This document shows, piece after piece, positions 4,115 to 64,000 of a stretch of 64,000 nt of DNA (positions within the stretch are counted from its first letter, which is position 1; each line of letters begins with the position of its first letter). The stretch is from assembly GCA_033065855.1 (NCBI GenBank), contig JAVXUO010002020.1:55927-119926 (forward strand), written 5' to 3'. Both the position numbers and the translations under genes were made by a program. The notes beneath the pieces were generated by a model. That model made no database searches. It saw only the letters and a list, made by a program, of their open reading frames with translations, and was not told the origin of the DNA. The stretch is from Escallonia rubra. Taxonomy: Eukaryota; Streptophyta; Magnoliopsida; Escalloniales; Escalloniaceae.

Positions 4115-7100
4115 TTAGTTAATAGTCATGTAGTTTATGTTGATGTTGAGAATATGTGAAATCTTATTCCACTCTGGGCCACTTCCCTTGGCACATCGTG
4201 TTCCCAGCAAGGGACAATTATATATATCCAGTAGTTCTAATTTGCTAAGGCGCTGCATCGCTTCCACAGAGGGCATACTCATCAGTTTCCTGCAGTGGGC
4301 AAGATACAGCACCCGAAGAGATGAGACATTGCTAAGCCACTCCGGGAGCGCCTCCAATCCATCAAAGTGCCATAAATACAGTTCCTTCAAGGCATAGAGT
4401 TGCTCAAGTTGGACGGGCAGAGACTTGAGCATAGGCCACCCCGTCAGATATAACGACTCCAGGGATGAGACACATTCAAGCATAGAAGCGCCCCTGGAAG
4501 TGGAAGGGTAGGGCCAGGGGAAATAATTAAGCTCCTCTGAGTAGCCACCTATTCCCAATCTTCTAAGACTGGTTAGGCATCTCAAGTCCATAGTTGATAC
4601 CAAAGCGGGGTACTCTATTATGTGCAATATTTGGAGAAACGTACAATCTTGCAGTCCACTTGGTAAAGAAGTTAAGGTTTTACAACCTGAAATTAGCAGT
4701 GTCTTGAGAGATGTGAGACCGTGTATGCCTGGGAACGCCTTCAGCTTAGGGCAGTCAACTACAGCCAAATGTACAAGAGATGAAAGTCTTTGTAGTCCCC
4801 CTGCAAACCAAGTTAGCTCCTCAAGATTTTCAATTTTTATGTCTTCAAGGGAAACAAGGGATTCCAACCCCTTCGGTAAACATGTCAGCTTTCCACAGTC
4901 TCTAAGCTTAAACTCCTTAAGAGAAGTGACGCCGCCTATTTCATCTGAAATGGAAGTTAAATTCAGGCAATTCACTACACTAAATCTCTCAAGTGCCACA
5001 AGGTTCTATATAGGCAAGTACGAAAACTCACAATTACAAATCGTCAACTTCTTTAGTGATACATTCTTTCCCAGCAACTCTTCCACTAATAACTGCAGCT
5101 CTGAACCTTTGACCGAAAGCATATCCAGAGAGGTGAGAGTGGTAAGTTTGCTGCTCATCTTTTGCAGCATTGCAGCATCATCGATTCCGACAATTCTTAG
5201 GTTTTTAATGGCTGGGAAATGACTTGGAACCATTGACAACTTGGAAAGACATAGAAGCTCCAACACCTCCAGGCAAGGAAACACCTTCACAAATGGAGAG
5301 GGACACACAACTTCGAGCCATTCCTCTAGGCCACGCAGGTTTTCTAGACGCAAATTTCTCAATGCCGGAAACATTGCACCTCCAGCACTAATACCACTAC
5401 CACTACCTGTTGCAACTTCAGCAATATGACCATAAAATTCAGCACCAATACGTTTGAGATTATGCAATCCTCCTATGTAAATAAACTTGAGACAAGTAAG
5501 GTGCCCAAGTGTTGGGATCTGCTCAGAACTTTGGCAGTAAATAAGCTTGATATCAACCAAGTTCTGAAGCACTACTGATGATTGACTCGGCATCATCATC
5601 CACGATGAAAAGTTTTTCCCTCTGAAGTTTTGAACTCTCAACCTTTTCAGATTTGAGTGAGGAGTGAGACCTTCTAACACATGCTCATGTGTGTTCTTTT
5701 CTTCTGGGACAACCTCATTGGTGTTCTTCTCTTCTCCGCCACTCCAGTGAAATTGCAAAGCATTGATGCGTGACTTCTTCAATAAATTTGCTTTTTTGGC
5801 GGCTTCTGTCGTTCTCACATCCTCAAGCCCAAAAACCTTCAATTCACCTTTGAGGTTGTTCACGCTTCCTAGATCCTCGATTTGGCATCCTTTGTCTCGA
5901 CTGACAGCAAAAAAAGGTAAAGTCTGAAGACAAGTCATTTGCCCTATCCCATCAATCGTACAGTCTCCGCTCCTTCCGCCATACTCAAAAATAAAATGTC
6001 TCAAGTTGATCAAGTTTCCAAACTTTACAGGGACTCCTGTCAGATACTTCACTCTCAAGGTTTGCAAATTATAGAGCTTATTGATGGAAACTGGCAGTGT
6101 CTTAACGTTGGTCTTTGAGATGTCGAGAGTGTTTCAGCTTCCCTCTTGAGTTTGGTAACTCATTCATAGCGTGGTCAATCAAAACAAGAGCACGGAGGCG
6201 TGTGAAGTTTGCTAACATCTTGTTTGGGAGATCGCAATGTAAAAATAGTGTTTGGACTTTTGGAAAACTTGCCTTTAAATTTTCTGTTCTATTTCCTTCT
6301 CCAAAACCCAATGATATGTGTACAGCCTCAGAATGCTCATCCACCTTGTTGGCCTCCAATGTTGCGCAATAACCATTGGATGTATCGGTTGCAAGATCAT
6401 GCAAGAGGTCATGCATCTTGCAACTTGTAATGTTGTCAAACTCATCCTTCACTAAATCTTGCAGGAATGAATTCCACAGTAAAGTGTCAAAATAACTGCT
6501 TCCTACATCCTCCATAATCGAATCGCTTCTTTCAGAAGGACGAAGCAATCCTAAGGCCATCCAAAGATGTATTAAGTTATTCTTGTTAATTTCAGAATCT
6601 TTTGGTAGAATGGAACAGTACGCAGGGGTGGAGCCCAAGCATGACCAGGGGGGGCCATGGCACCCCCCCACACACACACCCACCCCAAAGTTTGAGATTT
6701 TTTGTAATTGTTTTAAATAATAGATAGTTATGTTTAAAATATTTACTAAAATGCCACCATTTTAATTATTCAATGTATTATTTTGTAATGTTTTTTACTT
6801 TTTGTACCACCAGCCGTGGTAGTCTTTATCTTTCTCGTTCTCTTGTCCATCTTCATTCTTCCAAATTCTAAATCTCCAAATTTTAAAGTAAACACTACTA
6901 TATCAATGTTAATTCTTTTTTTTAATTTAGATTCTTATAGTGTGTTACCTTATACGTAACTATTGTCATCATACAATTGATATCGCACTAATAATACATA
7001 TATACAATAAAAGTAAGTTTCGTTCATGCAAGATTAGTATTTTGTTGTTGACTAACTTTACAATTTAAATAAAGCATGAGAAATAGTTAAATTCTATGAT

Positions 7101-8531
7101 TATTAGGCAAATTGAATAATCTATTCTGCATTTAACGTATTCAATCGTGACGTGAATTCTTTATGTTAGCCGTTAAATTTTTTTTTATGACATTTTGGTT
7201 TCCGGTTGGACTTCCTGGATCCACCCCTGACAGTACGCAAAACATTGTTTCAAGGACGACGATGGCAAATGGTCATAACTCAACTTCAAGATGCGCAGGA
7301 TGACTCCTGTTACATCCTCCGGTAATTCCCCCAAGTGACGATCTTGGACCGACAACCAATCATGTCTAGACTTCTTAGAGTACATCAAACCTCCTACGAC
7401 CTTGATCGCCAATGGCACGCCCCTACACTTTTTCACAATCTCTCTGCCAATCTCTACCAAATCACTAGTCTCAACTGCTCCACCATTTGCAAATGCTTTT
7501 GGCTTGAACATTATCCAACTATCATCATCTGACAAATGTTTTAATGGATAAGTAAGAGATGTCATAGTTGAAGCAACTTTACTACTCCGAGTGGTTACCA
7601 GAACTTTGCTCTCACTAGATCCACCTATTTCGAGCAGAGCATCTCTCAATGACTCCCATTTCTCAGGAATCTCATTCCACACGTCATCCAATACAACCAA
7701 ATATTTCTTTCCATTCAGATGTTTCCGAAGTTCTTTCAGGATTCCTCCCATGTTTGACAACTGGGGGTTAGTTTGTGTGAGAGATTGCACCATCTCATTC
7801 AAAATCCGCTTGTCCTCAAAATCATCGGATACAGAAATCCATATAAATTCATCGAAATGCCTAAATACCTTGTCATTTTTGCAGATCAGCTTAGCAAGGG
7901 TCGTCTTGCCTTGGCCGGGCATTCCTACTATAGAGATGACCGGTAAACCGTTTTCATTGTTCGGCGTAAGCAGCATGTCTGCTACCATAGACACATCAGC
8001 TTCCCTTCCGACAATCTTCTCTGAATCACCTACCCCCGGGTGAGTTACCGGGACTTGTTGATGTCCAGTACCCGCAGAGCTATTTATCTGGTCCACGGTC
8101 TTAAGTCCAATCTTCGTTGCTTCTTTGTAGATTGCATCCAGAGACAAGTTGATCGCCTTAATTTTGTGAGCCATCTTGAGATGAAATAAAAGTGGGTTTT
8201 TTTAGGGAGAAAACGAATCGCGTACCTTGTACTTGATTTGATCTCTTACGGCCACCTGCCGTCTCAGAAGTTCGTACGAAAACTCATCCAAGACAGTGTC
8301 AGCGTCGTATGCCACGGCTTTGAGACTTTTCAGCCATGTTTTCACGGCACTCAGCGTCAACTGCTTGCTCTCGGCGTCAGAAAGCAAGGCTTGAATCATG
8401 TTCAGCCTTTTATCTAGCCTTTTGAGCTCCCCCTTGAATCCCCAAGCAAGACTTGCCTCATTAGCTACAAGCGATAGCACCTTGCTCAGGATCCCTTTTG
8501 CAGCTTCGACAATCAGGAGAGCTTCAGCCAT
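4115..8531 (-). pseudogene. CC-NB-ARC-LRR resistance gene, pseudogene (copy A)
   Basis: Intact relatives are cytoplasmic immune receptors that sense pathogen effectors. Read from the ATG at 8531, the order is an Rx-type coiled coil, then NB-ARC with P-loop GMPGQGKTT, kinase-2 KKYLVVLDDVW and GLPL as CRGVPLAIK, then RNBS-D CFAYC, MHD as CKMHDLLHDLA, and LRRs. Compared with copy B (38737-42609), the breaks are: TAA at 8202-8204 where B has TCA; a 607-bp hAT insertion (6623-7229) splitting the RNBS-D region; an 8-bp deletion near 6128 that shifts the frame in the first LRRs; TAG at 5006-5008 where B has CAG; and loss of roughly one LRR repeat near 4800. The single-exon layout fits the RGA-like CNL class. 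A functional product is very unlikely. Confidence 0.93.
6615..7237. mobile_element. Non-autonomous hAT element, 607 bp, in NLR copy A
   Basis: The element spans 6623-7229 and has terminal inverted repeats CAGGGGTGGA / TCCACCCCTG. It is flanked by a perfect 8-bp target duplication ACAGTACG (6615-6622 and 7230-7237). The uninterrupted paralogue at 41300-41330 shows the empty site. A G-run/C-run hairpin (about 6648-6668) lies just inside the left end, as in the related elements at 18489 and 21033. The interior is AT-rich and non-coding. The insertion came after the A/B duplication. Confidence 0.93.
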
Positions 8532-38736: not shown

Positions 38737-41700
38737 TTAGCTGTGCATTATCCACACGCCGCCTATTAAGATGCCGCGTATATGTGCAATCTTATTCCAC
38801 TCTGGCCCACTTCCCTTGGCACATCGTGCTTCCAGCAAGGGGCAACCAGATATCCACAGATCTTCTAATTTGCTAAGGCGCTGCATCGCTTCCACAGAGG
38901 GCATCTTCGTCAGTTTGATACACCTGTAAATATGCAGCTCCCGAAGAGATGAGAGATTGCCTAGCCACTCCGGGAGCGCCTCCAAGCCATCAAAGTGCAA
39001 TAAATACAGTTCCTTCAAGGCATAGAGTTGCTCAAGTTGGACGGGCAGAGACTTGAGCATAGGCCACCCGCACAGCTCTAAAAACTCCAGGGACGAGACA
39101 CAAGCGCCACTGGAAGAGGAAGAGTAAGGCCAGGGAAAATAATTAAGCTCCTCTGAGAAGCCACCTATTGTCAACCATCTAAGACTGGTTAGGCATCTCA
39201 AATCCATAGTCGATACCAAAGCAGGGCACTGCGTTATGCACAATGTCCGGAGAGATGTGCGATCTTGCAGTCCACTAGGTAAAGAAGTTAAGATTTTACA
39301 TCTTTCAATTGCCAGATTCTTGAGAGATTTGAGACCGTGTACGTCTGGGAACGCCTTGAGCTTAGGGCAGTCAGTTACAGTCAATTCTTCAAGAGATGAA
39401 AGTGTTTGTAGTCCTTCCGGCAACCAACTTATCTCCTTAAAATCTCCAATTCGTAGTGTCCGAAGAGACTTGAGAAGGAGCGTATCTGGAAAGACACTTA
39501 ACTCTTGGATGCCTTCTATCCTTAAGCTTTCAAGGGAAACTAGGGATTCCAACCCTTTTGGTAAACATGTCAGCTTTCTACACTCCTCCAGGCTAAAGTC
39601 TTTAAGAGAAGTGAGTCCGCCTAGTTCATCTGGAAGGGATGTTAAATCACCGCATCTCGCTAATTCAAGGCTCTCAAGCGCCACAAGTTTCTGTATAGGC
39701 AAGTACGAAAAGTTAGGACAGTTCCAGATCTGCAAGTTCTTTAGTGATATATTCCTTCCCAGCAACTCTTCCATTAATAACTGAAGATCTGAACCTTCGA
39801 GACATTCCATAACCAGAGAGGTGAGAGTGGTCAGTTTGCTGCTCATCTTTTGCAGCATTGCAGGATTAGTGATTTTGCTAAGTCTTAGGTCTTTAACGGC
39901 TGGGAAATGACTTGGAACCATTGACAACTTGGGAATCCTTTTAAGCTCCAACTTCTCGAGGCAAGGAAACACCTTCACAGACGGAGAGGGAGGCACAGCT
40001 TCGAGCCATTCCTCTAGGCCACACAGGTTTAATAGACTCAATTTTCTCAATGCCGGAAACATTGCACCTCCAGCACTAACACCACTACCACTACCGGTTG
40101 CAACTTCAGCATTAGGACCATAAAATTCAGCACCAATACGTTTGAGATTGTACAATCCTTCTATTTCAATAATCTTGAGACAAGTAAGGTGCCCAAGTGT
40201 TGGGATCTGCTCAGAACTTCTGCAGTACTTAAGCTTGATATCAACCAAGTTCTGAAGCACTACTGATGATTGACTCGGCATCATCATCCACGATGAAAAG
40301 TTTCTCCCTCTGAAGTTTTGAACTCTCAACCTTTTCAGATTTGAGTGAGGAGTGAGACCTTCTAACACATGCTCATGTGTGTTCTTTTCTTCTGGGACAA
40401 TCTCGTTTCTGTTCTCCTCTTCTCCGCCACTCCAGTGAAATTGCAAAGCATTGATGTGTGACTTCTTCAATATATTTGCTTTTTTGGCTTCTTCCGTGGT
40501 TCTCACCTCCTCAAGCCCAAAAATCTTCAATTCACCTTTGAGGTCGTTCATGCCTCCTAGATCCTCGATTTGGCATCCCTTGTCTCGACTCACAACAAAA
40601 AAGGGTAAAGTCTGAAGACAAGTCATTTGCCCTATCCCATCAATCGTACAGTCTCTGACCTTTGCTCCATACTCAAAAATAAAATGTCGCAAGTTGATCA
40701 AGTTCCCAAACTTTTCAGGGACTCGTGTCAGATACTTCACTCTCAAGGTTTGCAAATTGTAGAGCTTATTAATGGAAACTGGCAGTGTCTTGACATTGGT
40801 CTCTGAGATGTCGAGATATCTCAAGTGTTTCAGCTTCCCTATTGAGTTTGGTAACTCTTCCATAGCGTGGTTAGTCAGAACAAGAGCACGCAGGCGTGTG
40901 AAGTTTGCTAACATGTTGTTTGGGAGATTGCAATGTAAAAATAGTGTTTGGACTCTTGGAAAACTTGCCTTTGAACTTGCTGGTGTATTTCCTTCTCCAA
41001 GATCCAATGATAAATGTACAGCCTCAGAATCCTCATACACCTTGTGGACCTCCAATGTTGCGCAATAACCCTTGGATGTATGTGTTGCAAGATCATGCAC
41101 GAGGTCGTGCATCTTGCAACTTTTAATGCTGTCAAACTCATCCTTCTTTATATCTTGCAGGAATGAATTCCACAGTAAAGTGTCAAAATAACTGCTTCCG
41201 ACATCCTCCATCGTCGAATTGCTTCTTTCAGAAGGATGAAGCAATCCTATGGCCATCCAAAGATGTATTAAGTTATCCTTGTTAATTTCAGAATCTTTTG
41301 GTAGAATAGAACAGTATGCAAAACATTGTTTCAAGGATGACGATGGCAAATGGTCATAACTTAACTTCAAGATGCGCAGGATGACTCCTGTTACATCCTC
41401 CGGTCACTCCCCCAAGTGACGATCTTGAACCGACAGCCACTCATGTCTGGACTTCTTAGAGTGCATCAAACCTCCTACGACCTTGATCGCCAGTGGTACG
41501 CCCCTACACTTTTTCACAATCTCTCTGCCAATGTCTACCAAATCACTAGTCTCAACTGCTCCACCTTTTGCAAATGCTTTTTGCTTGAACATTATCCAAC
41601 TATCATCATCTGACAAATGTCTTAATTGATAAGTAAGAGATGTCATAGTTGATGCAACTACACTACTGCGAGTGGTTACCAGAACTTTGCTCTCACCAGA

Positions 41701-42609
41701 TCCACCTATTTCGAGCAGAGCATCTCTCAATGACTCCCATTTCTCAGGAATCTCATTCCACACGTCGTCCAATACAACCAAATATTTTTTTTCCTTCAGA
41801 TGTTTCCGAAGTTCTTTCAGGATTCCTCCCATGTTTGACAACTGAGGGTTAGTTTGTGTGAGAGATTGCACCATCTCATTCAAAATTCGCTTGTCCTCAA
41901 AATCATCGGATACAGAAACCCATATAAATTCATCGAAATGCCTAAATACCTTGTCATTTTTGCAGATCAGCTTAGCAAGGGTCGTCTTGCCTTGGCCGGG
42001 CATTCCAACTATAGAGATGACTGGTAAACCGTTTTCATTGTTTGGCATAAGCAGCATGTCTGCTACCATAGACACGTCAGCTTCCCTTCCGACAATCTTC
42101 TCTGAATCACCTATCCCCGGGTGAGTTACCGGGACTTGTTGATGTCCAGTACCCGCAGAGCTATTTATCAGGTCCACGGGCTTAAGTCCAATCTCATTTG
42201 CTTCTTTGTAAATATCATCCAGTGACAAGTTGATCGCCTTAATTTTGTGAGCCATCTTGAGACGAAATAAAAGTGGGTTTTTTGAAGGAGAAAACAAATC
42301 GCGTACCTTGTACTTGATTTGATCTCTTACGGCCACCTGCCGTCTCAGAAGTTCGTACGAAAACTCGTCCAAGACAGTGTCAGCATCGTATGCCACAGCG
42401 TTGAGACTTTTCAGCCATGTTTCCACTGAGCTCAGCGTCAACTGCTTGCTCTCGGCGTCAGAAAGCAAGTCTTGAATCATCTTCAGCCTTTTAGCTAGCC
42501 TTTTGAGCTCCCCCTTGAATCCCCAAGCAAGACTTGCCTCATTAGCTACAAGTGAAAGCACCTTGCTCAGGATCCCTCTTGCAGCGTCAATGAGGAGAGC
42601 TTCAGCCAT
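38737..42609 (-). pseudogene. CC-NB-ARC-LRR resistance gene (copy B), one premature stop
   Basis: A single exon of 1290 codons from ATG 42609. Residues 1-110 form the Rx-type coiled coil. NB-ARC follows: P-loop GMPGQGKTT near 202-210, WVSVSDDF (RNBS-A), kinase-2 KKYLVVLDDVW near 274-284, LVTTRS (RNBS-B), CRGVPLAIK (GLPL) near 368-376, [11 protein letters not shown] (RNBS-D) and MHD near 500 in [11 protein letters not shown]. Some 20 or more LRRs fill 540-1270. The only break I see is TGA at 41404-41406 (codon 402), where copy A has TTA; no frameshift follows. The predicted product would be a 401-residue CC-NBS fragment, unless this allele is a sequencing error or the stop is read through. Family role: intracellular immune receptor of the RGA-like CNL class. 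Confidence 0.92.
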
Positions 42610-42763
42610 TATGCAACCCTTTCTCCAACTGCCAAGCCTAGATTAGATGAAGGAATGGCCACCCAAATTGACAACTTTCTGCTCTTGTTGTCAGAGGGCA
42701 ATGTGAAAGTGTGAACAAAAAGACTTCAAGGTTTTATAATAATCTACCTAATTAATGGTAGTA

Positions 42764-48444: not shown

Positions 48445-48446
<2 letters not shown>

Positions 48447-48695
48447 GAGCTGATCCCTTGACAGCGCTGGCAAAATAGGACATTTTGCCAGCGCGATCTG
48501 GCCGTCCATCCCTTCGGGATGGACGGCCCAGATCACTTTTTTTTGCGGCGCTGTCAGTCGTCCGCTACATAGTCTAGCGGACGGCCCTTTTTACCATCTT
48601 GCCCTCGCTCACCCGTCCGCTAGACTGTGTAGCGGACGACATTCTTGGGCCCACATCGTCCGCCAAAAAGTAGTCCGCTACACTGTCTAGCGGAC
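48445..48695 (+). repeat. MULE left terminal inverted repeat
   Basis: Pairs with 56330-56560 in inverted orientation with few differences apart from the extra hairpin CCATCCCTTCGGGATGG. The part at 48600-48695 is repeated directly at 48777-48871, extending the terminal structure inwards. Confidence 0.88.
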
Positions 48696-48904
48696 AAATG
48701 TTTCCGTCAAATCGGCCACTTCCCCCTGACAGTCCGCACATCAGTCGATGCACGACTGTTACTTTGTCGTTATCTTGCCCTCGATCACCCGTCCGCTAGA
48801 CTGTGTAGCGGACGACATTCTTGGGCCCACATCGTGCGCCAAAAAGTAGTTCGCTACACTGTCTAGCGGACGACTGTTGTCGTCCGCAACACAGTGTAGC
48901 GGAC
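48560..48904. repeat. Left cluster of six 23-bp palindromes
   Basis: Units of the form GTCCGCTANAnnGTnTAGCGGAC start at 48560, 48615, 48673, 48791, 48849 and 48882. Each is an 8-9-bp inverted repeat around a short centre. Repeated palindromes in the ends of a MULE are candidates for transposase-binding sites; no binding data exist here. Confidence 0.85.
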
Positions 48905-49277
48905 TACTTCGAAACCCTTCTAAACTTCTATTCATTCCTTCTTCTCACAATCAAACTATTCCTTCTTCTCACAATCAAACCAGCGGCGTTGGCAAGTAGA
49001 TCGGCGCAATTTCTTTGCAACAAAATCCTTTAATCGTCTCATCAATCACGTAAGTTCACAAAGCAATCCTTTCTTTGTTCATAATCTAGAGTTCATCTTG
49101 CGGCGTTGGCAAGTAGATCGGAACTATGCTAGCGTTTGTCAATGTATATACATATATATTATATATGTGTATTGCGATTATCTGATCACATGCTAGCGCT
49201 GAATATGCTAGCGTTGTATGTTTGGGAATGTTTACGCTTCCAACCTTGCCCTATTTCCATTATTTCAGTTGCAAAAA

Positions 49278-52200
49278 ATGGATTTCAACCCTGGACCAGA
49301 AGATTCGTCCGTATTATACGACCAAGCAAACCATATCAGTACGCTCATATGGGATGGTGGAGTAAGATACTTATTTTATCGTTTATATCGTTTATTTTGC
49401 TTGCGTATTTCAGTTGCGAACGTTGTATATCGTTTATTTTGCTTAAATAATATTTATTAATTCGTAGGAAAGAGCACTTGTCAACACGGTAGAAGTAAGC
49501 GATAATTTCAACGCCTAGAAATTGAACAGAACCCAGAAAAGATTACTGCGTGGGATTGGGTTTGGGATTTTCACGCATGGGCAGATCTTTCAACAACTTG
49601 ACCGGCACTTAATAGGTGCCCTTGTTGAAAGGTGGAGAAGTGAAACGAATACGTTTCACTTCCCTCTCGGAGAGATGACAATTACCCTAGAAGATGTAGG
49701 GTTCATCTTAGGGTTACCGGTGACGGGGCGGCCGGTAATAGCTCATCCGTCCGAAGCAACGAATAAGAGGACCGCTAGGGACTTATTTACTTCGATACCC
49801 CAGGATGGATTTAGCAGTGGTGGTATCAAGTTGAAGTGGTTGGTAAATACCTACGGGGTTTTGCCAGAAAACTATACGGGCCATGACCTTGTGCTGTACA
49901 CACAAGCCTTCCTCTGGTGGGTGATGGGGGCAATATTATTCCCAACGACGTCGAAGAACACGGTCAGCGTCAAATATTTACCGTTTTTGCGTAACCTGGC
50001 TGAGGTTGGGGATTATGCCTGGGGTGCAGCAACTATTGCATACCTGTACCGAGCATTGCACAAGGCAACGAGGCCCGACTCCAAAGCGATATGTGCATGT
50101 CTCTCGCTATTGCAGGTATATCATACAATTCTTCATTACGTGCTCTTTGTTTTTTTTTTTTGTTGAATGGACAATAAATGTTGACGATACTTTTTTTAAT
50201 GTCTTTGCTCTCAGGTGTGGTCTTATGAACACCTTGCTACCGGCGCACCCAGGCGTAGGGACGGAACAGATAATGTGTGGCCTCGGTTGTGCGCCTGGGA
50301 GTACAGCCGGAAGGAAACCCACTACGAGAGGAGAGACGATCCCCATCACAACATTGGTTACTATCGGGGGGAGCTCGACTCGTTATCTCCTGGCCAGATG
50401 CGATGGGCACCGTACAAACGTTTGGCGCGACGGGTGGGAGAGTCGTTCGTCTTCACGCTCTCCGGGTTGTAACGCACACCCCTGATCCACTTCGAGGTCG
50501 CAGAGTGGCAGCTGCCAGATCGCGCTATGCGCCATTTTGACTGCCTGCAGGGGTTGTCAGCCGGCGCGCCAGATATGAGGCTTAACAGGAACCCACCGGG
50601 TGTCGGACTGTTTGGCAGGGCGAATGCGCACGACTTGTGCGCGCGTGAAATTGAGGTCTGGAATTCCTGGCAGGACACGCTGGCGGCCATTGTGTCGGAG
50701 CCTGACCCCGTCATCAGCATCGAACAGTACAATGAGTGGTACTACCGCATCACCCGGAGGAGAGTAGCTCCAGTAAGGTTTGAATGCGGAGAGAAGTACC
50801 ACCCTAAGGGTCAGATCGATGAGCACATGGCATACAATCTGGTAAGTTGCCCAACCAGTGCTTCTAATTGAACTTGATCATTCTAAGTGTGTACGAAGTT
50901 ACTTATTTATTATCTCTCTGGATGTAGGTTAATGCCTCGTTCGCCTTCTTCCAGAAGTTGAGCGAGCGGAAGGATTTGGTGGATGCCATGGGCGAGGAGC
51001 TTCGCCAACAGGCTGAAGCGTTGGCGCTTGGCTGCGGGAATTTTTTGCGGCAAGCATCGGGACAGCCTTAGGGCGTCACCCCGGGAATGGGGGATCCGGG
51101 GTGGCAGCGGCCGTTTGTTCCCGAGGGATGCACTGATCCCTCGGGACAGACTTCGGGAGTGAGCCAGGGATATGGTTTTCCCTCTGTACCGGAAATGGGT
51201 GGTGATTGGGGACCGCCAAGCACCATGGGCCACGCTCAAGCGCCGTGGGAAGATTACAGTGTGCCCTCCTTCTCTTTGCTATTGGATTCGGAACCCCAAC
51301 CCCTCTCTCAGAGTCAAGTCACGCAAGACTGGGGTTTCGGAAACATCAGTCTGCCCATTGTCCCGTGGGCAGGACCATCTATTGCCGAAGGCGGGCAATA
51401 ACCCCCCGTTGACCCCCCCGAAGGAGTGCAATATCCCCCCGTCAACCCCCCCGAAGGAGTGCAATATCCCCCCGTCGACCCCCCCGAAGAAGTGCAATAT
51501 CCCCCGGTCGACCCCCGAGGGAAATATCGCAAAGGGCATCCGTTGAAGCCCCTAAAGCCGCATAAATGGAGAATAATCAGAGAGCGTTATTTTAGCGGCT
51601 ACCCGCATGACCAAGCGTTGTATAGTGTGGATCATCCGGAGGGCATGGATTACAGTTGCTCGTGGGGAGAACTGGCCTCCCTGGCTCCGGGGAGTTGGTT
51701 AGACAACGGTGTCGTCTCCACCTACGTGGAGATTCTGAAGGAAAGGTGTCGGCAGCAGCCGACCTATCCGGCCGTTTTTTTGTTCGATGCCTTCTTTCAT
51801 AGCCTCCTAGTGTCTGAATGGCGGGAGTGGGTCGAATGTAGGGGGAAGAAAAAGTTGGTGCAGTGGAGACCGTCCGTTAACCTACGAGCGTATGTTAATA
51901 GGGATAGTCCGGTGAGCGCAAGTGTTGCCGATGTGTTTCTAATCCCATTTCTAGGGGAAAGCCACTGGTACTTGGTTTGCTACACCCCAACAAGTAAAGT
52001 CGTATCGGTGATCGACAGTCTCCACGACGATACTCTCCAAATGCCTGTGCTGCAGATGTACAAAGCCCAGTTGGACTCATTGGTAATATTACGATCGCTG
52101 TATAATGCTCTGATTCTATCTTGCCATAAATTTTAACTCGTGTCTTACGCCATTTTCTGTTTCTCGCAGAATATTTTTTGTGCAATGGTCAATCGTGTCC

Positions 52201-52481
52201 GCAACGTCCCCGTACCGGCGCGGCCAAATCTCGATAGGCGATTGAAGAAGAGGAGGCCCAAGCAACGTAACACTTCGGACTGCGGCGTCTTCCTTTGCAT
52301 GTACATGGATTTCATTTGTCGCTCTGAGAGCCTCAAGGCGGCCGTCTGGAGCCAAGCAGAAGTTGAAGCCTATAGATATAGAATAGCTTGGCAAATTATG
52401 AAAGGCCGGCCTAGAGCGGTTAGGTTTATAGAAAATCCGGCTAATGACGAGAATCCGCCCCAACATGCGGACCCCAGTTGA
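49278..52481 (+). pseudogene. Plant mobile domain - Ulp1/C48 protease fusion gene of the MULE
   Basis: Five exons with GT-AG introns give a single frame of 942 codons: 49278-49361, 49468-50115, 50215-50841, 50928-52082, 52170-52481. The N-terminal part is a plant mobile domain (MDFNPGPEDSSVLYDQANHI, LDRHLIGALVERWRSE, FHFPLGEMTITLEDVGFILG). After a Pro-rich linker comes a C48 peptidase with catalytic His799 (ESHWYLV), Asp816 (VIDSL) and Cys876 (SDCGVF), plus Gln870 for the oxyanion hole. C48 enzymes process SUMO or cleave SUMO from targets in the nucleus. Mobile-domain proteins such as MAIL1/MAIN act in silencing with PP7-like phosphatases. Four in-frame stops interrupt the frame: TAG 49516, TAA 50470, TAG 51069, TAA 51399; there are no frameshifts. 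This suggests a recently inactivated gene. Separate proteins made from the intact C48 segment cannot be excluded. Confidence 0.85.
51393..51520 (+). repeat. 33-bp coding minisatellite in the PMD-ULP1 linker
   Basis: Three to four tandem units encode the 11-residue motif EGVQYPPVDPP between the mobile domain and the protease. The first unit has TAA where the others have TAT, giving the fourth in-frame stop. It probably forms a flexible Pro-rich spacer. Confidence 0.85.
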
Positions 52482-52678
52482 AATTGTATCATAACAGTAT
52501 TTTTTACATAAACCGTGATTCATTGGTGTGATTTGATTTGTGTTGATTTCTGTTGTCGATTACTGATTGATTGATTTCAGTTGTTGGTTTTTTGGCCTCA
52601 TTGGGAATGATTGAAATGTGGAAAACGAAATGGTGCAAAATTTTTCTAAGTAGTGAAGTTTAGTCTTTCTGCTGTGCC

Positions 52679-53252
52679 GTCCGCGATACAATGTAGCGGC
52701 CTAATGTAGGTAGAGAATTTTTCTAAGTGTTGATGGGTGGAGCTTTCTGCTGCGTCGTCCGCTATATAGTATAGCGGACATAAATGAAAACCAAAGTTTC
52801 TGCTATGCCGTCCGCTACATTGTATGGCGGACGTAAAATGGAGACCAAAGTTTCTGCTATGACGTCTACGATACAATGTAGCGGACGAATGTAGATAGAG
52901 AATTTTTCTAAGTGCTGATGGGTGGAGCTTTCTGCTGCGCCGTCCGCTATACAATGTAGCGGACTAATGTAGGTAGAGAATTTTTCTAACTGTTGATGGG
53001 TGGAGCTTTCTGCTGCGTCGTCCGCTATATAGTATAGCAGACATAAATGAAAACCAAAGTTTCTGCTATGCCGTCCGCTACATTGTATAGCGGACGTAAA
53101 ATGGAGACCAAAGTTTCTGCTATGCCGTCCGCTACATTGTATAGCGGACGTAAAATGAAGACCAAAAGTTTCTGCTATGACGTCCGCTACATTGTATAGC
53201 GGACGTAAAATAAAGTTTACCGTTTTACCGTCTGCTACGTTGTATAGCGGAC
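52679..53252. repeat. Internal array of ten 23-bp palindromes between convergent genes
   Basis: Units GTCCGCTACATTGTATAGCGGAC and variants start at 52679, 52757, 52810, 52864, 52942, 53020, 53073, 53127, 53182 and 53230; a partial one lies near 53290. Spacing is about 53-55 bp or 78 bp, because each palindrome sits in a longer repeat containing AAAGTTTCTGCTATG or GGTGGAGCTTTCTGCTGCG. The array fills the gap between the 3' ends of the two MULE genes. The palindrome is the same as in the terminal repeats. Confidence 0.88.
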
Positions 53253-53340
53253 TTTAAAAAAACCCCAAAAAATTAGGTCCCTGCATATCCATCCGCTATA
53301 CATCATATGGTAAAAACATTCCAGTATTCGGTCGAAAAAT

Positions 53341-53456
53341 TATTAGGTAAAAATTATTACAAATGTCTATCTTGCCATAAAAATTATTACAAATGTCAAA
53401 CTTATACAAATGTCTATCCTGCCATAAAAATTATTACAAATGTCAAACTTATACAA
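53341..53456. repeat. Short AT-rich direct repeats
   Basis: Three copies of AAAATTATTACAAATGTC, alternating with CTTATACAAATGTCTAT-like segments, lie next to the transposase stop codon. Function unknown; possibly part of the 3' untranslated region. Confidence 0.6.
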
Positions 53457-53460
53457 AAAA

Positions 53461-55755
53461 TTAAAGGTCCACTGCAGCTTGTCCGTCCTCATCTTCGGCG
53501 TCATCTTCTTCCCCGTCTTGCAAACCCCCTGGACTTATCCCCAGTGCCTTGTAATGGTTCCGCTTGTCGTGGTCAGTCATTTTGTTGCACAATGCACACC
53601 TTCGCAGCTTTTTAGGTTGAGTTGCCGTTTCAATTGAGCTTTTCATCCACGTAGATCTCTTGCGGCCTTTCGTTTGCGATATAATTGGATCCAACGGCCG
53701 GATATCATTGTCGTCTTCCTCCCCCGGCTCGTCGTCTTCTGATCCCGTCGTTGGCTCGGTGTCAACCGCGTTGGTGACTGAAGCTGCTTCCAACTGGTCG
53801 ACGATGGGCTCTTGTTGCTGAGCTACCTCGAGGAGATGTTTATAACCGACCATTGTAGCAGCACCCTTTACGGACAAACGGGTGAACATCGTCACCAGAT
53901 GATTATACCGCAACGTCTCTGATTCTTCAAAGTCAGTATACGGGTGCTCCGGAAAGGAAATGGTACCGTGCAACCTGTTTGCACCTTTCGTCCACCGTGG
54001 CAAGACGTATTTATCGGGGATTGTCCTGATATTCTTCTGGGTGAAAAACCGCATAACGTGTCTACACAGGATGCCATGGAACTCAAACTTCTTGCAAACA
54101 CATGTCACCGAGTCCGTCAATGTGTCGTGGCTCACCGTATACATTCTGCGCAGCTTCTCAGGGACGAGGTCATTCACGAGCGAATAAACCTTGTACTCAC
54201 GCGTAGACTTTTCTGCCACCTTGTTTATACAGTACCGTCCCGATTTCTGCAGCTCTACTTGGTATAGCAAGAAGATCTCCTTCGTATAGAATTTGGCACC
54301 GTTCAGCTCCAGCGGGGTCTCGAGCAACCTTCTCCTTTGTTTGTACGTTGTTGCAAAGTCGGCAGCCCTTTCTTTTACGAACAACGAAGCTACCGCTTTT
54401 TGTGCGGATGCAACGAAAGTCTTCAAATTGGTAGTTGTACCCACATAACTATCGAACGTGGCATTCATGGATTCACTCCTGCCCGTCGTTTTCATGCCCG
54501 CTGAAAAATACCTCCTCGTGTAAACGCCAATCCATTGCTCTTTGCGCTCGTACAAGTGCTGGAGCCACTCGTTGTCTTGCAATGAGTAATCCCGAACAAG
54601 CTTTTCCCACCTCTCCTAGAATTCCTCAATCGTTAACGACTTGAGGACGCACTTGTCAAAATCCTGTTTAAAGTCTGGATACTTTGCGTACACGTGATGC
54701 AGCCGTTCCGGGTATTTGTTGCTTATGTGCCAGGTGCACAAGTTGTGCCGAGTGTCTGGGAAGACGGTCGCAATAGCCTTCTTCATTGCCAAATCTTGAT
54801 CGGTGATGATCACTTTGGGTGCTTTGAAGTTCATTGCTTCCAGCCACGTCCTAAACAACCATTCAAAAAAACTCTCGGTCTCGTCCCTTAACAAGGCGAA
54901 CCCGAACAGGATGGAGTGATAATGATGATTGACCCCCGTGAAAGGGGCGAACGACATCGAGTACTTGTTGGTACGGTATGTGGTGTCGAACGTCACGACA
55001 TCCCCAAAATGCTTATAAGCAAGCCTCGAACGACCGTCGACCCAAAAAATTGTGCTAACTCGATGCTCGTCGTCAAGTTTATAATCAAAGGTGAACTGCG
55101 GGTCCTCCATCTGCATCCGTTTCAATAGGCTCATTGTGGCTTGAGCATCATTGAGGTCATACGCGGCTCGTCTATGGGTTCGGACCGCGTTACGAACGTC
55201 TGTCGTGTTAAAGGTCAAATTTTGAATTCCCCCAGCCTGTTCAGCAAGAACATTAATTATGTCGGTAGGTCCTAGTCGCGCATTGCTCATTGTCTGAATC
55301 AGGCTCCTTGCGACCTTACCCATCTTCTTGTGTTGATGCATCTGACTCACCTTAGAAGGGGTTACTAACGGGTGATTGTGTGCCAGTTCCAGGCTGGTAA
55401 TAAGCCAATGGTCTTGATTGGGTTTGTAGCTTACGAACATCTTGACCTGGCAATTTGTGCGCTCAAAGCAGTCCCGTCTTCTACGCGGATATCCTATTTC
55501 GTCATCACTGTCATCATTGCCTACGCGTGTCTCATTTTGCACTGGGTTTCTGCGCCTATGGCACTCGTATAAGCGAGAGCATATCTTTCTCGTTATGGTG
55601 CTCGTTCTTGAAGTCTTTATTCTAATGCCAAAACCAACCCTCAATGAATACGCTCGAAAACATTCTTCAGCTTCTTCCAACGTAGCAAATGTTCGTCCTA
55701 AATACGGATCACTAGCATCTACGGGGACGTTGGAGCTCGACACGAAATCAGACAT
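53461..55755 (-). pseudogene. MULE transposase, FAR1/MuDR type, one premature stop
   Basis: Read from ATG 55755 the frame has 765 codons. The N-terminus has a FAR1-type DNA-binding domain (FATLEEAEECFRAYSLRVGF ... HNHPL). The MULE transposase core carries catalytic Asp257 (TFDTTYRTNKY), Asp319 (IITDQDLA) and Glu428 (RSESMNATF). A SWIM zinc finger follows at 552-566 (CVCKKFEFHGILCRH), then an acidic tail with a CxxC/H zinc-knuckle-like motif (CALCNKMTDHD). It would bind the terminal repeats and catalyse cut-and-paste transposition in the nucleus. The single break is TAG at 54616-54618, codon 380, probably from GAG; there are no frameshifts. A host-domesticated FAR1-related gene is unlikely because the gene lies inside intact terminal repeats. 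Confidence 0.9.
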
Positions 55756-56272
55756 TGTGAAACAAGAGCTGTGTAGAAATAGACTACGCTTAACAATCAA
55801 ATGGCATTTCTAACTGAAAATATTACCTAAAAATTACCTTGGCGAATAGACCAATTTAGGATGACAAACATACCGTATGCATAATCTCAAAAGTGTCTCC
55901 AAATTAACAATTATTAATTTATTGAACATAACAAATTTAAATTAGTAAGATAAATAGAAGAATTCATCACGCCAAAAAATCGAATTAAACTATAATGAAT
56001 TAAATATAAAGTTAACAAATTATACCTTTTTTATGAACATCATGTCTAGAACATCACAAAAAATCTAGAGTATAAAATCACAAATTAATTAATACAGTGA
56101 CAAATTTCTAGAACATCAAGAAAACATGAAGCAAACTTACCTTGCTTGAGAAGAAAATTGTGCTGAAAGAAAATTGAGTAGGCTTGAAGGCAGCTGAAAA
56201 TGGAAGCGAGTCCGAAGGAGAAGAAAATTGTGCTGAAAGAAAATTGAGTAGGTTTTGGGGATGGGCAATACT

Positions 56273-56465
56273 GTCCGCTATACTGTGTAGCGGACACAAT
56301 TGTGTCAGAATTGTGCAGTTGTGACAGTAGTCCGCTATACTGTCTAGCGGACTACTTTTTGGCGGACGATGTGGGCCCAAGAATGTCGTCCGCTACACAG
56401 TCTAGCGGACGGGTGAGCGAGGGCAAGATGGTAAAAAGGGCCGTCCGCTAGACTATGTAGCAGAC
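56273..56465. repeat. Right cluster of four 23-bp palindromes
   Basis: Units start at 56273, 56330, 56388 and 56443; the last has one change (GCAGAC). They mirror those of the left terminal repeat. Confidence 0.85.
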
Positions 56466-56560
56466 GACTGACAGCGCCGCAAAAAAAAGTGATATGTGGA
56501 CGGCCCGATCACGCTGGCAAAATGTCATATTTTGCTAGCGCTGTCAATGGATCAGCTCCC
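56330..56560 (-). repeat. MULE right terminal inverted repeat
   Basis: Inverted counterpart of 48445-48695, ending GGATCAGCTCCC at 56560 and followed directly by (TA)n. It shares the segment GGGCCCAAGAATGTCGTCCG and the GCGAGGGCAAGATGG block with the left end. Confidence 0.88.
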
Positions 56561-56581
56561 TATATATATATATATATATAT

Positions 56582-56805
56582 GGGGGCCGATCCCCACATC
56601 CACCCAACCGCAACAATTTGTTGCGGTTGGTTTTCCCACAAAGTTCGGCCTTCTTTTCCACGTGGCCCACCCCCCCACCCCACCCCCCACCCTCAAACCG
56701 CAACTAACTGTTGCGGCTGCCAAAAGCAACCGCAACAAATTGTTGCGGTTGGGTGGATGGGTGGATAATATCCACTGGTAGAGATGGTAGATGTGGATCG
56801 GCCCC
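56582..56805. mobile_element. Small inverted-repeat element in (TA)n, 224 bp
   Basis: Ends GGGGGCCGATCCCCACATC and GATGTGGATCGGCCCC are inverted repeats, and both flanks are (TA)n. The interior consists of palindromes around CCGCAACAATTTGTTGCGG, repeated on both sides of a C-rich segment. The termini resemble the neighbouring MULE's (GGGAGCTGATCC), so it may be a related non-autonomous element. MITEs in (TA)n tracts are known (rice Micron). Confidence 0.78.
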
Positions 56806-56831
56806 ATATATATATATATATATATATATAT

Positions 56832-58813
56832 AATGCATGACATAAGGATATTCAAATCGATATGACGTGACATAGTTTTGGAAGATTCCATCATGCTCTT
56901 TGAATAAGCTAAAGGGTTCACAACCACGGTGGCATGTCATCGGCATCAAATTAATCCAAGATTATATTCATATAATGCATGACATAAGGATATTTAAATC
57001 GATATGACGTGACATTATTTTGGAAGATTCCATCATGCTCTTTGAATAAGCTAAAGGGTTCAGAACCACGGTGGCATGGCATCGGCATCAAATTAATCCA
57101 AGATTATATACATATAATGCATGACATAAGGATATTTAAATCGATATGACGTGACATTATTTTGGAAGATTCCATCATGCTCTTTGAATAAGCTAAAGGG
57201 TTCAGAACCACGGTGGCATGGCATCGGCATCAAATTAATCCAAGATTATATACATATAATGCATGACATAAGGATATTTAAATCGATATGACGTGACATT
57301 ATTTTGGAAGATTCCATCATGCTCTTTGAATAAGCTAAAGGGTTCACAACCACGGTGGCATGTCATCGGCATCAAATTAATCCAAGATTATATTCATATA
57401 ATGCATGACATAAGGATATTTAAATCGATATGACGTGACATTATTTTGGAAGATTCCATCATGCTCTTTGAATAAGCTAAAGGGTTCAGAACCACGGTGG
57501 CATGGCATCGGCATCAAATTAATCCAAGATTATATACATATAATGCATGACATAAGGATATTTAAATCGATATGACGTGACATTATTTTGGAAGATTCCA
57601 TCATGCTCTTTGAATAAGCTAAAGGGTTCACAACCACGGTGGCGTGGCATCGGCATCAAATTAATCCAAGATTATATACATATAATGCATGACATAAGGA
57701 TATTCAAATCGATATGACGTGACATAGTTTTGGAAGATTCCATCATGCTCTTTGAATAAGCTAAAGGGTTCAGAACCACGGTGGCATGGCATCGGCATCA
57801 AATTAATCCAAGATTATATACATATAATGCATGACATAAGGATATTTAAATCGATATGACGTGACATTATTTTGGAAGATTCCATCATGCTCTTTGAATA
57901 AGCTAAAGGGTTCAGAACCACGGTGGCATGGCATCGGCATCAAATTAATCCAAGATTATATACATATAATGCATGACATAAGGATATTTAAATCAATATG
58001 ACGTGACATTATTTTGGAAGATTCCATCATGCTCTTTGAATAAGCTAAAGGGTTCACAACCACCGTGACGTGGCATCGGCATCAAATTAATCCAAGATTA
58101 TATACATATAATGCATGAAATAAGGATATTTAAATCGATATGACGTGACATTATTTTGGAAGATTCCATCATGCTCTTTGAATAAGCTAAAGGGTTCACA
58201 ACCACCGTGACGTGGCATCGGCATCAAATTAATCCAAGATTATATACATATAATGCATGACATAAGGATATTTAAATCAATATGACGTGACATTATTTTG
58301 GAAGATTCCATCATGCTCTTTGAATAAGCTAAAGGGTTCACAACCACCGTGACGTGGCATCGGCATCAAATTAATCCAAGATTATATACATATAATGCAT
58401 GACATAAGGATATTTAAATCGATATGACGTGACATTATTTTGGAAGATTCCATCATGCTCTTTGAATAAGCTAAAGGGTTCAGAACCACGGTGGCATGGC
58501 ATCGGCATCAAATTAATCCAAGATTATATACATATAATGCATGACATAAGGATATTTAAATCGATATGACGTGACATTATTTTGGAAGATTCCATCATGC
58601 TCTTTGAATAAGCTAAAGGGTTCACAACCACGGTGGCGTGGCATCGGCATCAAATTAATCCAAGATTATATACATATAATGCATGACATAAGGATATTTA
58701 AATCGATATGACGTGACATTATTTTGGAAGATTCCATCATGCTCTTTGAATAAGCTAAAGGGTTCACAACCACCGTGACGTGGCATGGCATCGGCATCAA
58801 ATTAATCCAAGAT
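56832..58813. repeat. 142-bp satellite, 14 head-to-tail copies
   Basis: Units start (AATGCATGACATAAGG) at 56832, 56974, 57116, 57258, 57400, 57542, 57684, 57826, 57968, 58110, 58252, 58394, 58536 and 58678, so the period is exactly 142 bp. Copies differ at a handful of sites (CACGGTGGCATG versus CACCGTGACGTG; TATTCATAT versus TATACATAT), and these variants recur in patches. Each unit has a TGACGTGACAT motif. There is no coding capacity. The last unit has a 5-bp internal duplication before the array ends. Confidence 0.95.
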
Positions 58814-60423
58814 TCCTCATACTCCTTTGTCAAACATGCCGCAAATTTGGCCTTATGTGGGCAGCAATTATAAAAACATATCCTGCAAAGTGCGGTACGG
58901 TCTTTAAAAGTACCGCCTTCAGAAATGAATGAAAAACATCCTTTGAATGTACTTTGACTATTCCCTTTCGGTTATTTTACTTATCTTCCTCACGTAGTAT
59001 TCACACCGATAAATTTATATCGATACTCCCACATATTATGAGTAATATAGGCAAATGTAAGATGCATTCTAAACTTTTAGGAATGCGTAGCATGGAAAAA
59101 AATTCTGTTGCATTGAACTTTTCCCCCTTATTATATTTATGATTATATATAAGAAAAAGGGGGATAGAGACAGTGTGGATTGCATTCGAAGCATATGCCC
59201 CCTGATTAGATTAGAACATGTTACACTGCAGTTATTACATTACAATCAATAGAAGAATGCACGCTGCAAACTATAATGACTATGGTACACTCAGTTTGGT
59301 AGAGCCTTGGGACGAGGCCTTGCCCTCATTACTGTTTCGTCACTGTGCCTAATCAACTCTGAGAGTCTTCAAGGTTTTTGCCACTTCCATTTGAACTGTA
59401 ACAACCACTGATGATGACTTCGCTTCCACCTCCACAACTTCCCACCATGCCCTACCAGTGCCAACTTCTTCATGGACAACTGTCCGATTGGAACCATCTG
59501 AACTCAAACAAAACGATAGAAGAACTTCTCATGAATTTACTTTCGGCATTTGATGTACGTGCTATTAGCACTCTTTTGCTAGTGACACTCCATGTAGAAC
59601 TATGCCTACTGGCTTGTGCACAAACGAGTTATCTACAACTATGAACTGTCATTAACAAATAAGAAGTGCCGGTGACAGTAACTAAAAAAATCTCCCAAAA
59701 TTAAAATGCCGAGGGAGATAGTGACGAGCGAAAAAAATATTTAGTATTTGTTTGACACCACGTCATCATCTTAGATGGTACTCCGTATTAGACTATTTAT
59801 ATATTGCCAACTAAGCAATGTTGTCAAATGGTGGGACTGTTCATATGGATATAGACCTTAATTGTAGTTTACCATGGTTAATGAAAAAATTAAAAATTTT
59901 CAAATTTTGAACTTCCCGCCTGCCACTTGCTACTTTTCTACTACCGTTAGATTACCATTTCAGTTTCTCATTCTCTTCGTTCTCCCTCTCCCCTTTCATT
60001 TTCACCAATCAACGAGCCCAGCATTATACAAGAGAACCGTGCGTAGCGCAGCTACCAGACCACCGCCGCTGGTAAAAACGCAATTACCCATGCATTCGGC
60101 AAGAAACCCACTTCTTTTTCCTCTCTTCTTTCATTTCGACGACAACCACCGTTAAAATCAAGATCAAGACAGAGATATGGATATTAGTAAGCGTAAAGAT
60201 CCATTTCCTAATCTTGAATGGTTATAGGTCTTGAAAACGAAGAAGGTTTCGCAAATGAAAATATGAAAAAGAAAAAGAAAAGTGCCAAATCACATATATT
60301 GCAAACTGGATTATGTGCGTAACCTGATTTTCACAATCAACATGAACACACATACACAGCTGCCTTACCGGAATAAAGGAACCCACAAAGAGGAAGACGC
60401 ATATAAATTATTATACAAAGATT
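58814..60423. other. Gene-free stretch
   Basis: No gene or repeat recognised. Short open frames (for example 59411-59644 plus and 59874-60155 plus) show no family signature. Confidence 0.4.
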
Positions 60424-62174: not shown

Positions 62175-63130
62175 TGTTAGTGTTTTCCAAAATATAGTGT
62201 CAAGTTTGGTTCATTTTCTTTGTCAAAATGATGAAAGGAATGTGAAGAGGTAAGAATGAAGGAATCCCACATAGAAGGGAATTGAAAAGGTAAGTGGGTA
62301 TATAATAAAGTACTCCACTTACTTTATTACTTATGTGGTATGCTAAGGTGTGTGCATGTGCACCGAGTATGGTGCGAAGCACCATACGAGGAACAATCGC
62401 ACGCACGCGCGCGCGCGCGCGCGAGCGTGGCAGTGGGCTGTGAGGCGCAATGTGGCGCTTTGATGGCGCACTTTGCACTTCGCATCGTCGCGAGACGCGA
62501 TTAGACGCCTTTAAGTTTTCGTGACGAAAACTAGACCATCGGTTCAACGGACCGGGTCGGATCCGACCCTTGGCAGTTGGGTGGTTACACTCGGGTTATA
62601 CCCGAACAGTTGCACCTGTTGGGCAGCTGGGTGGTTCCAAGTTGGACAGACCCAACTGTTGGGAGCTGGTTAGTTACCAGTCCGGATCTGTACCGTTGAT
62701 CTTAACGGTTTCTGATCCAACGGTCCAGATTGCTTCGGTGATGATGAAAAGGTGTGACACTTGATTAGCAACCACTAGTGCTTTATAAATAGAGCACAAT
62801 GGTCAGATTTTCGGACCTAGTAATAAGCCTCTACTCTCTTCATTTTTTCCTTTCGGCAGATCTTTTACAACAAGAAATTTCTGCAGAATTTCTTACTTGT
62901 AAATCCCATTATTCAGAATTCCATACACATATCTGTGGGGTGAATATCGTGTGTGCAAACGCTATTCACTAAAGCGCTTCGTTGTATCTTGGAGGGTATT
63001 TGCCGGCAACCCGCTGCACACCGTTCTATTTGGTGGGGGCAAATATAAACTTAAGGAGAGCGTTTTACAACGTGCCTCGAAGCCGATACTTCTTTCAGTC
63101 ACAAAGCCATACCGAACATATACCCCAACA
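62175..63130 (+). mobile_element. 5' LTR of a Ty1/copia-type retrotransposon, 956 bp
   Basis: Begins TGTTAGTGTTTTCC and ends ACCCCAACA just before the gag leader. It shares layout and motifs with the solo LTR at 42769: TTTTCCAA near the start, TCCCACATAG, the TATA context, GCAAATAT..CTTAAGG in U5, and CCAACA at the end. A (CG)n-type tract lies at 62401-62425. The 3' LTR is beyond the window, so the right boundary is inferred from the solo LTR. Confidence 0.78.
62784..62791 (+). promoter_or_regulatory. TATA box of the copia LTR
   Basis: TATAAATA lies 346 bp before the LTR end. The solo LTR has the same box at 43361, and both are followed closely by ATGGTCAGATT. Transcription would start near 62815, which defines the U3/R border. 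Confidence 0.65.
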
Positions 63131-63147
63131 ATCTTAAGTTTATATTT
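63041..63147 (+). promoter_or_regulatory. Inverted repeat joining U5 and the primer-binding position
   Basis: AAATATAAACTTAAG (63041-63055, inside the LTR) is a perfect 15-nt reverse complement of CTTAAGTTTATATTT (63133-63147, starting two bases after the LTR). The second arm occupies the place of the primer-binding site, and the common TGGTATCAGAGC is absent. In RNA the arms would form a stem with a 77-nt loop. Confidence 0.7.
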
Positions 63148-63154
63148 AGCAACA

Positions 63155-64000
63155 ATGGCGTTCATGACGTTGAAAGACATGGGCTCGGATTTCCACCGCT
63201 TGGAGCGTTTTGATGGTGGGGACTTCGTTCGTTGGCAAAGGAAGATGCACTTTCTACTAGTAACAGTGAAAGTGTACTACGTGATCGTGAATCCAAGACC
63301 TCCAGAACCCGGTGAAAATGAGGAGGAAAGTGTTGCGAAGACACGTGAAAGATTGAGGTGGGATCAAGATGATGAGATATGTCGAGGACATATTCTTAAT
63401 GGCATGTCCAACACACTGTTCGATGCCTATCATACTGTCAAGACCGCTAAGGAACTTTGGAACCAATTGGAGCGTCGTTACATCACCGAGGATGCCACCA
63501 GTAAAAGGTTCATCGTTTCTAAATTTTTTTATTACAAAATGGTTGATGGTAGATCGGTTATGGAACAGTTTAATGAGATTAAAAGTATTCTTGATCGTTA
63601 TTCCCAACACAAGTTAGCCTTGGATGAGTTTATCGTGGTTACATCTATCATTGATAAATTGCCTCCTTCTTGGAAGAATTTTAGAAACAGCCTTAAGCAT
63701 CGCAAGGAAGACATCAACCTTGACGAGTTGGGTACTCATCTTCGGATTGAGGAAGACTTGCGCAAGGAAGAAAAGTCTAAAAGCGAGGGCGTTTCTAAAA
63801 TCTTGGCCGTGGAAGAAGGAGAATCATCCAAGAAGAACTCCCGTGAGAACAAGAGAAGGAAACTTCAAGGAAATGATGACGACGACAAGGACAAGGACAA
63901 GAAGAAAAAACACAAAGGAAAGTGTTTTCACTGTGGCAAACCAGGGCACTATAAGCGTGATTGCCGTGCCTTGAAGAAACAGAAAAAGGCGACCGAAAAT
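63155..64000 (+). CDS. Copia retrotransposon Gag (5' part of gag-pol, cut by window end)
   Basis: An open frame of 282 codons from ATG 63155 runs through the last base of the window. It starts MAFMTLKDMGSDFHRLERFD and contains the plant copia Gag fold signature (FVRWQRKMHFLL, AKELWNQLERRYI, LPPSWKNFRNSL). A Lys/Asp-rich stretch (about 225-256) precedes a CCHC zinc knuckle CFHCGKPGHYKRDC at residues 257-270. Gag packages element RNA into cytoplasmic virus-like particles; the knuckle binds nucleic acid. No stop or frameshift is seen, unlike the other transposon genes here. In related elements protease, integrase and reverse transcriptase would follow in the same frame. Confidence 0.93.
   Translation, partial: MAFMTLKDMGSDFHRLERFDGGDFVRWQRKMHFLLVTVKVYYVIVNPRPPEPGENEEESVAKTRERLRWDQDDEICRGHILNGMSNTLFDAYHTVKTAKELWNQLERRYITEDATSKRFIVSKFFYYKMVDGRSVMEQFNEIKSILDRYSQHKLALDEFIVVTSIIDKLPPSWKNFRNSLKHRKEDINLDELGTHLRIEEDLRKEEKSKSEGVSKILAVEEGESSKKNSRENKRRKLQGNDDDDKDKDKKKKHKGKCFHCGKPGHYKRDCRALKKQKKATEN

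Follow-up and report, generated by a model that had tools for sequence, protein, structure and literature searches.

The window analysed here, i.e., a whole 64-kb stretch of Escallonia rubra DNA, contains between positions 48445 and 56560 a decayed Mutator-like element (MULE) of FAR1 type with two genes, in which a transposase gene faces a gene joining a plant mobile domain (PMD) to a C48 protease. We tentatively propose, at a probability of about 0.4, that in working relatives of this copy the PMD-C48 protein is an element-specific anti-silencing regulator targeted to a palindrome repeated within the element. Published work already covers MULE-borne PMDs and Ulp1 domains as well as the anti-silencing idea; what is new is the combination, a PMD-C48 fusion on a FAR1-type MULE together with a palindrome array, and no description of such a fusion on a MULE was noticed among the matches listed in the open-licence literature.

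In working family members, the PMD-C48 protein would act as a regulator specific to its own element: the PMD would bring it, either directly or through a partner, to the palindromes arrayed at the two ends and in the intergenic stretch, and the C48 part would there take SUMO off silencing or chromatin proteins, so that the element promoters would stay open and transposase would be made. This mode of action would resemble that of VANC from VANDAL elements, with the PMD in place of DUF1985. The decayed copy itself would at most be a target of intact relatives, or be moved by them.

Structure of the element and decay of this copy

The features of the element are as follows:

48445..48701, plus strand: left terminal inverted repeat, 257 nt
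48560..48904, unstranded: palindrome, 6 copies at the left end (motif search)
49278..49361, plus strand: PMD-C48 exon 1 (splice borders, phase)
49468..50115, plus strand: PMD-C48 exon 2, first half of the PMD, in-frame stop at 49516-49518 (profile, splice borders)
50215..50841, plus strand: PMD-C48 exon 3, second half of the PMD, in-frame stop at 50470-50472 (profile, splice borders)
50928..52082, plus strand: PMD-C48 exon 4, PMD tail, linker, 33-bp tandem repeats and start of C48 with His and Asp; in-frame stops at 51069-51071 and 51399-51401
51385..51516, plus strand: linker tandem repeats, four of 33 bp (11 codons) (repeat search)
52170..52481, plus strand: PMD-C48 exon 5, remainder of C48 with the catalytic Cys; final stop at 52479-52481
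52679..53252, unstranded: palindrome, 10 copies in tandem repeats between the 3' ends of the convergent genes (motif search)
53461..55809, minus strand: FAR1/MULE/SWIM transposase frame (profile matches)
56273..56465, unstranded: palindrome, 4 copies at the right end (motif search)
56324..56560, minus strand: right terminal inverted repeat, 237 nt

The terminal inverted repeats are identical at 225 of 237 aligned bases and differ by one 20-nt gap, the 20 nt of the left end having no counterpart at the right, which bears out the near-perfect terminal repeats described in the first-pass annotation. Both ends of the MULE adjoin TA tracts, as in an insertion amid TA repeats, and since these tracts lie on either flank, any target duplication is ambiguous and unreadable; MULE duplications are given as about 8-11 bp, with plant groups listed with 9-10 bp (PMC6446971).

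Other features were observed in the flanks. A MITE-like element of 225 bp (56582-56806) shares a TA tract with the right end of the MULE, matches the MULE end at 10 of its first 12 bases and has an inner inverted repeat of 45 nt, and may represent a small, related element likewise targeting TA repeats. It is adjoined by approximately 14 tandem copies of a 142-bp unit, 97% matching (56821-58814). Furthermore, disease-resistance-type gene frames (NB-ARC, LRR, winged helix) occupy the minus strand at 38740-42642, where Rx_N is also present, and at 4118-8201, both genes being split into several stop-to-stop frames, and a copia-type gag frame with a zinc knuckle lies on the plus strand from 62903 to 64000 and continues beyond the end of the window.

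Profile searches placed FAR1 (E 8.2e-14) and MULE (PF10551, E 5.3e-32) domains in one minus-strand frame and a SWIM domain (E 4.7e-5) in the next minus-strand frame. The element thus carries a MULE transposase domain, and the N-terminal FAR1 and C-terminal SWIM correspond to the FAR1-type (Jittery-like) layout, an assignment made by domain layout alone. One in-frame stop (54618-54616) separates the MULE core from the SWIM finger; the FAR1-type transposase had been recognized in the first-pass annotation, and its three domains are indeed present, but this interruption had gone unmentioned. The first part of the transposase yielded two matches among solved structures (E 0.65-0.66), which we regard as chance.

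The second gene runs in the opposite direction, on the plus strand, and its five exons encode, in order, the PMD, a repeat-rich linker and the C48 protease. Exon borders, predicted by reading the sequence, are GT/AG throughout, with every junction in phase 0, and the joined frame comprises 941 residues. In this frame, the PMD (PF10536) matched profile positions 12-346 of 347 with an E-value of 5e-71 (240.1 bits, curated cut-off 34.9), and Peptidase_C48 was found with an E-value of 3.1e-15 (57.1 bits, cut-off 20.7). An alignment with human SENP2 (E 1.9e-12) covers the C48 stretches bearing the catalytic His, Asp and Cys, in agreement with the triad reported earlier, and the C48 part is predicted to be a SUMO-cutting enzyme. 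The PMD part gave no match to solved structures up to an E-value of 1, and an AlphaFold2 model of the related E. rubra protein P0002, aligned with P0001 and P0003 (see below), had a mean pLDDT of 31.5. The profile matches and the joined frame support the architecture originally claimed, i.e., a FAR1-type MULE with a gene joining PMD and C48; as for the single five-exon frame, PMD and C48 do share one joined frame, but this is broken by four in-frame stops.

These stops start at 49516, 50470, 51069 and 51399, the last two falling in the linker between PMD and C48. With in-frame stops in both genes, this copy probably makes neither full transposase nor the PMD-C48 protein. Neither frame needed a frameshift to be followed, which suggests that the decay is recent. 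Removal of the stops by splicing was also weighed and, on inspection of the sequence, dismissed: the first stop is preceded by a donor-like site, but the resulting intron would measure about 24 nt.

The palindrome array and what may read it

The repeated motif is a 23-bp palindrome, composed of GTCCGCTA, 7 bases and TAGCGGAC, of which the element holds 20 copies that are not independent of one another, being located in inverted ends and tandem repeats. Both half-sites are exact in 12 of these copies, while six carry one change, one carries two and one carries three. The exact half-site GTCCGCTA is present 31 times in the 64-kb window, each time within the noncoding DNA of the element, whereas Markov shuffles of the element (n = 100) gave a mean of 0.21 and a maximum of 2. 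Of the 39 occurrences of the looser 6-mer CCGCTA, four fall outside the element and two in its exons, and a single weak palindrome match, with three mismatches and different spacing, was found outside the element, at 22370. By hand count, 6 of 11 changes from the half-site consensus are C-to-T or G-to-A, which, with such small numbers, would fit decay of the palindromes under methylation.

As described for the motifs of VANC proteins, the palindromes are repeated in the noncoding parts of their own element, and they are a candidate target. Together with the PMD-C48 fusion, the confinement of their exact half-sites, within the window, to the element renders a VANC-like model of self-targeted anti-silencing testable, and hints at a self-targeted escape from silencing. 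In analogy to VANC, one self-directed anti-silencing module could have the PMD-C48 gene as its factor and the palindrome array as its target.

The main rival to this module, which we hold to be rather unlikely, is that the palindromes are binding sites of the FAR1-type transposase, used for end assembly or autoregulation, and that the PMD-C48 gene is unconnected to them. Transposases usually bind terminal or subterminal regions; 10 of the 20 palindromes are located in such regions, and FAR1 is, by its Pfam name, a DNA-binding domain. The other 10 copies, however, are placed between the 3' ends of the genes, some 3 to 4 kb from either end of the element, an arrangement that argues against transposase sites.

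Returning to the self-directed module, its favourable evidence comprises the domain anatomy, the in-frame linker, the related proteins with PMD plus linker (P0002) and linker plus C48 (P0004), and the element-confined palindromes, together with three published precedents: VANC proteins that bind tandemly repeated motifs of their own MULEs (PMC5735166), VANC genes with Ulp1 (PMC13317346) and a promoter motif shared by genes dependent on host PMD proteins (PMC7156037). Against it stand the stops in both genes of this copy and the failure to find a relative with both PMD and C48; binding of the palindromes by the PMD is putative, and they may serve the transposase instead; the host PMD proteins MAIN and MAIL1 promote silencing, i.e., the opposite direction; the matches linking PMD to DUF1985 are weak (E 0.08 to 0.24); and the palindrome copies are non-independent. 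An anti-silencing role for the cargo is a fair inference. We consider it doubtful that the element represents a second sequence-specific anti-silencing module of MULEs, in which a PMD would replace DUF1985 on a FAR1-type carrier with long terminal inverted repeats, the PMD locating the element's own palindromes and the fused protease desumoylating silencing factors at these sites.

Related proteins and the probable unity of the PMD-C48 gene

When the complete PMD-C48 sequence was compared with the protein collection, the search scored only the 8000 candidates sharing most words with the query, and among these three matches were obtained, namely P0001 and P0002 of E. rubra and P0003 of Aristolochia fimbriata. 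The PMD part of P0001 is identical at 478 of 494 positions (97%); this PMD is flanked by a different N-terminal stretch (residues 1-200) and, past the PMD, by a region of PPR repeats (residues 700-1040), and P0001 is probably a merged gene model. P0002 consists of PMD and linker and is 79% identical up to residue 610, within the linker (PMD, 84.8%; linker, 68.0% of 97 aligned residues). P0003 joins a MULE transposase to a PMD. A search with the C48 part found no protein at fusion length among 1405 candidates, and the C48 part alone retrieved one E. rubra protein, P0004, among 1776 candidates, which is 68% identical (99 of 146) to the second half of C48. The N-terminus of P0004 corresponds to the linker of the window in another frame, with a score of 156 against at most 58 in 200 shuffles scored on three plus-strand frames; linker and C48 thus occur together at another E. 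rubra locus, where the gene model may mask decay. Taken together, P0001, P0002 and P0004 lend sequence support to the family, and none of the four relatives (0/4) holds both PMD and C48. The best hits also point to Escallonia as the source of the window.

Amino acids occupy the stop positions covered by the relatives, two of the four in P0001 and three of the four in P0002. The third stop (51069) falls where P0002 aligns in frame, and the P0002 alignment ends just before the fourth. An altered genetic code was rejected as an explanation of the stops, the relatives with amino acids at the covered positions being ordinarily annotated proteins of flowering plants.

These relatives bear on whether PMD and C48 belong to one gene at all. 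That they are separate, as two adjacent genes or as two products with the linker stops ending the first, appears improbable to us. Such a division would agree with the location of two of the four stops in the linker, with annotated relatives that have PMD (P0001, P0002) or C48 (P0004) and none with both, and with the Met found in frame shortly upstream of the C48 match. Nevertheless, the sequence from the PMD tail into C48 lies in a single exon (exon 4) and is read without a frameshift, the linker repeat being frame-preserving; P0002 continues past the position of the third stop and P0004 starts within the linker; and two further stops in the PMD half indicate that stops are scattered along the gene.

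Finally, that the PMD-C48 gene was captured from the host as a useless passenger and is now decaying is the least probable reading, and a very improbable one. In its favour, gene capture by MULEs is known, as is the common decay of what they capture (PMC13317346); fusions of host PMDs with proteases have been mentioned (PMC7156037); and the gene is stopped in this copy. Against it, several MULE groups carry PMD genes, often in antisense (PMC6446971); a stop also interrupts the transposase of this copy, so that decay extends beyond the cargo; and the Aristolochia protein P0003 joins a MULE transposase to a PMD.

Comparison with known systems

A close parallel to the proposed PMD-C48 regulator is offered by the VANDAL MULEs, whose VANC proteins bind short motifs amassed by tandem repetition in their own noncoding DNA (PMC5735166) and induce loss of silent marks (PMC5735166, PMC10398659). 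According to a review, an Ulp1 domain is present in some of the MULE-borne VANC genes (KIU), which have a similar anti-silencing action (PMC13317346). Like VANC and KAONASHI/KIU, the PMD-C48 gene is a second gene of a MULE, with an Ulp1 domain as in the KIU form (PMC5735166, PMC10398659, PMC13317346), and candidate target motifs are repeated in the noncoding parts of the element. Conversely, a PMD is present here and DUF1985 in VANC; the terminal inverted repeats are long, whereas KIU elements are described as non-TIR MULEs; the motifs are palindromes, whereas those of VANC21 form arrays of a single orientation; and binding and anti-silencing are reported for VANC and putative here. In the element, DUF1985 appeared only as a match of exon 2 alone, far below the cut-off (E 0.082; 13.3 against 35.1 bits), and was not listed for the joined protein; judged by this domain, the PMD-C48 protein is not a VANC, although it may act in a similar way. 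PMD and DUF1985 may share an ancestor, but the matches between them are weak (exon 2, E 0.082; P0001, E 0.24; P0002, E 0.16), and none is listed for the joined protein or for P0003.

Regarding the PMD itself, MULE-PMD fusions with a suggested anti-silencing role have been published (PMC5418596), the same idea for MULE-borne PMDs appears in PMC8616336, and PMD genes on several MULE groups, including VANDAL, often antisense, have been tabulated (PMC6446971). The gene studied here agrees with these in being MULE-borne and antisense to the transposase (PMC5418596, PMC6446971). The tabulated plant Jittery group, however, has FAR1, one ORF and no PMD (PMC6446971), whereas here a FAR1-type element carries a PMD gene; moreover, this PMD is joined to C48, and the main text of PMC6446971 does not contain the terms C48, protease, peptidase, Ulp1 or ulp. 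Similarly, the ULP-bearing MULEs and CACTA elements of grapevine have in common with the present element an Ulp1 domain on a DNA transposon, in either orientation to the transposase (PMC2528002), and differ in that a PMD is present here, the main text of PMC2528002 lacking 'mobile domain' and 'PMD'.

The PMD is also shared with the host proteins MAIN and MAIL1 and with fused forms such as MAIL3, and genic PMDs fused to protease, kinase or phosphatase domains are mentioned (PMC7156037). MAIN and MAIL1 are needed for silencing some loci and for expressing genes with a common promoter motif (PMC7156037); unlike these pro-silencing host genes, the PMD-C48 gene sits inside a transposon. The title of a 2025 publication refers to modules of a PMD protein and a DNA motif that counteract Polycomb silencing. 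In this context, the palindrome array would offer a concrete DNA target to test for PMD proteins, whose mode of action has been described as largely unknown (PMC8616336), and a PMD-C48 module would point to a reason for the repeated occurrence of Ulp1 domains on plant transposons. In the literature covered, an element's own sequence-specific anti-silencing protein is described for VANDAL MULEs; the PMD-C48 gene and its motif array would extend this strategy to other cargo and to another type of MULE.
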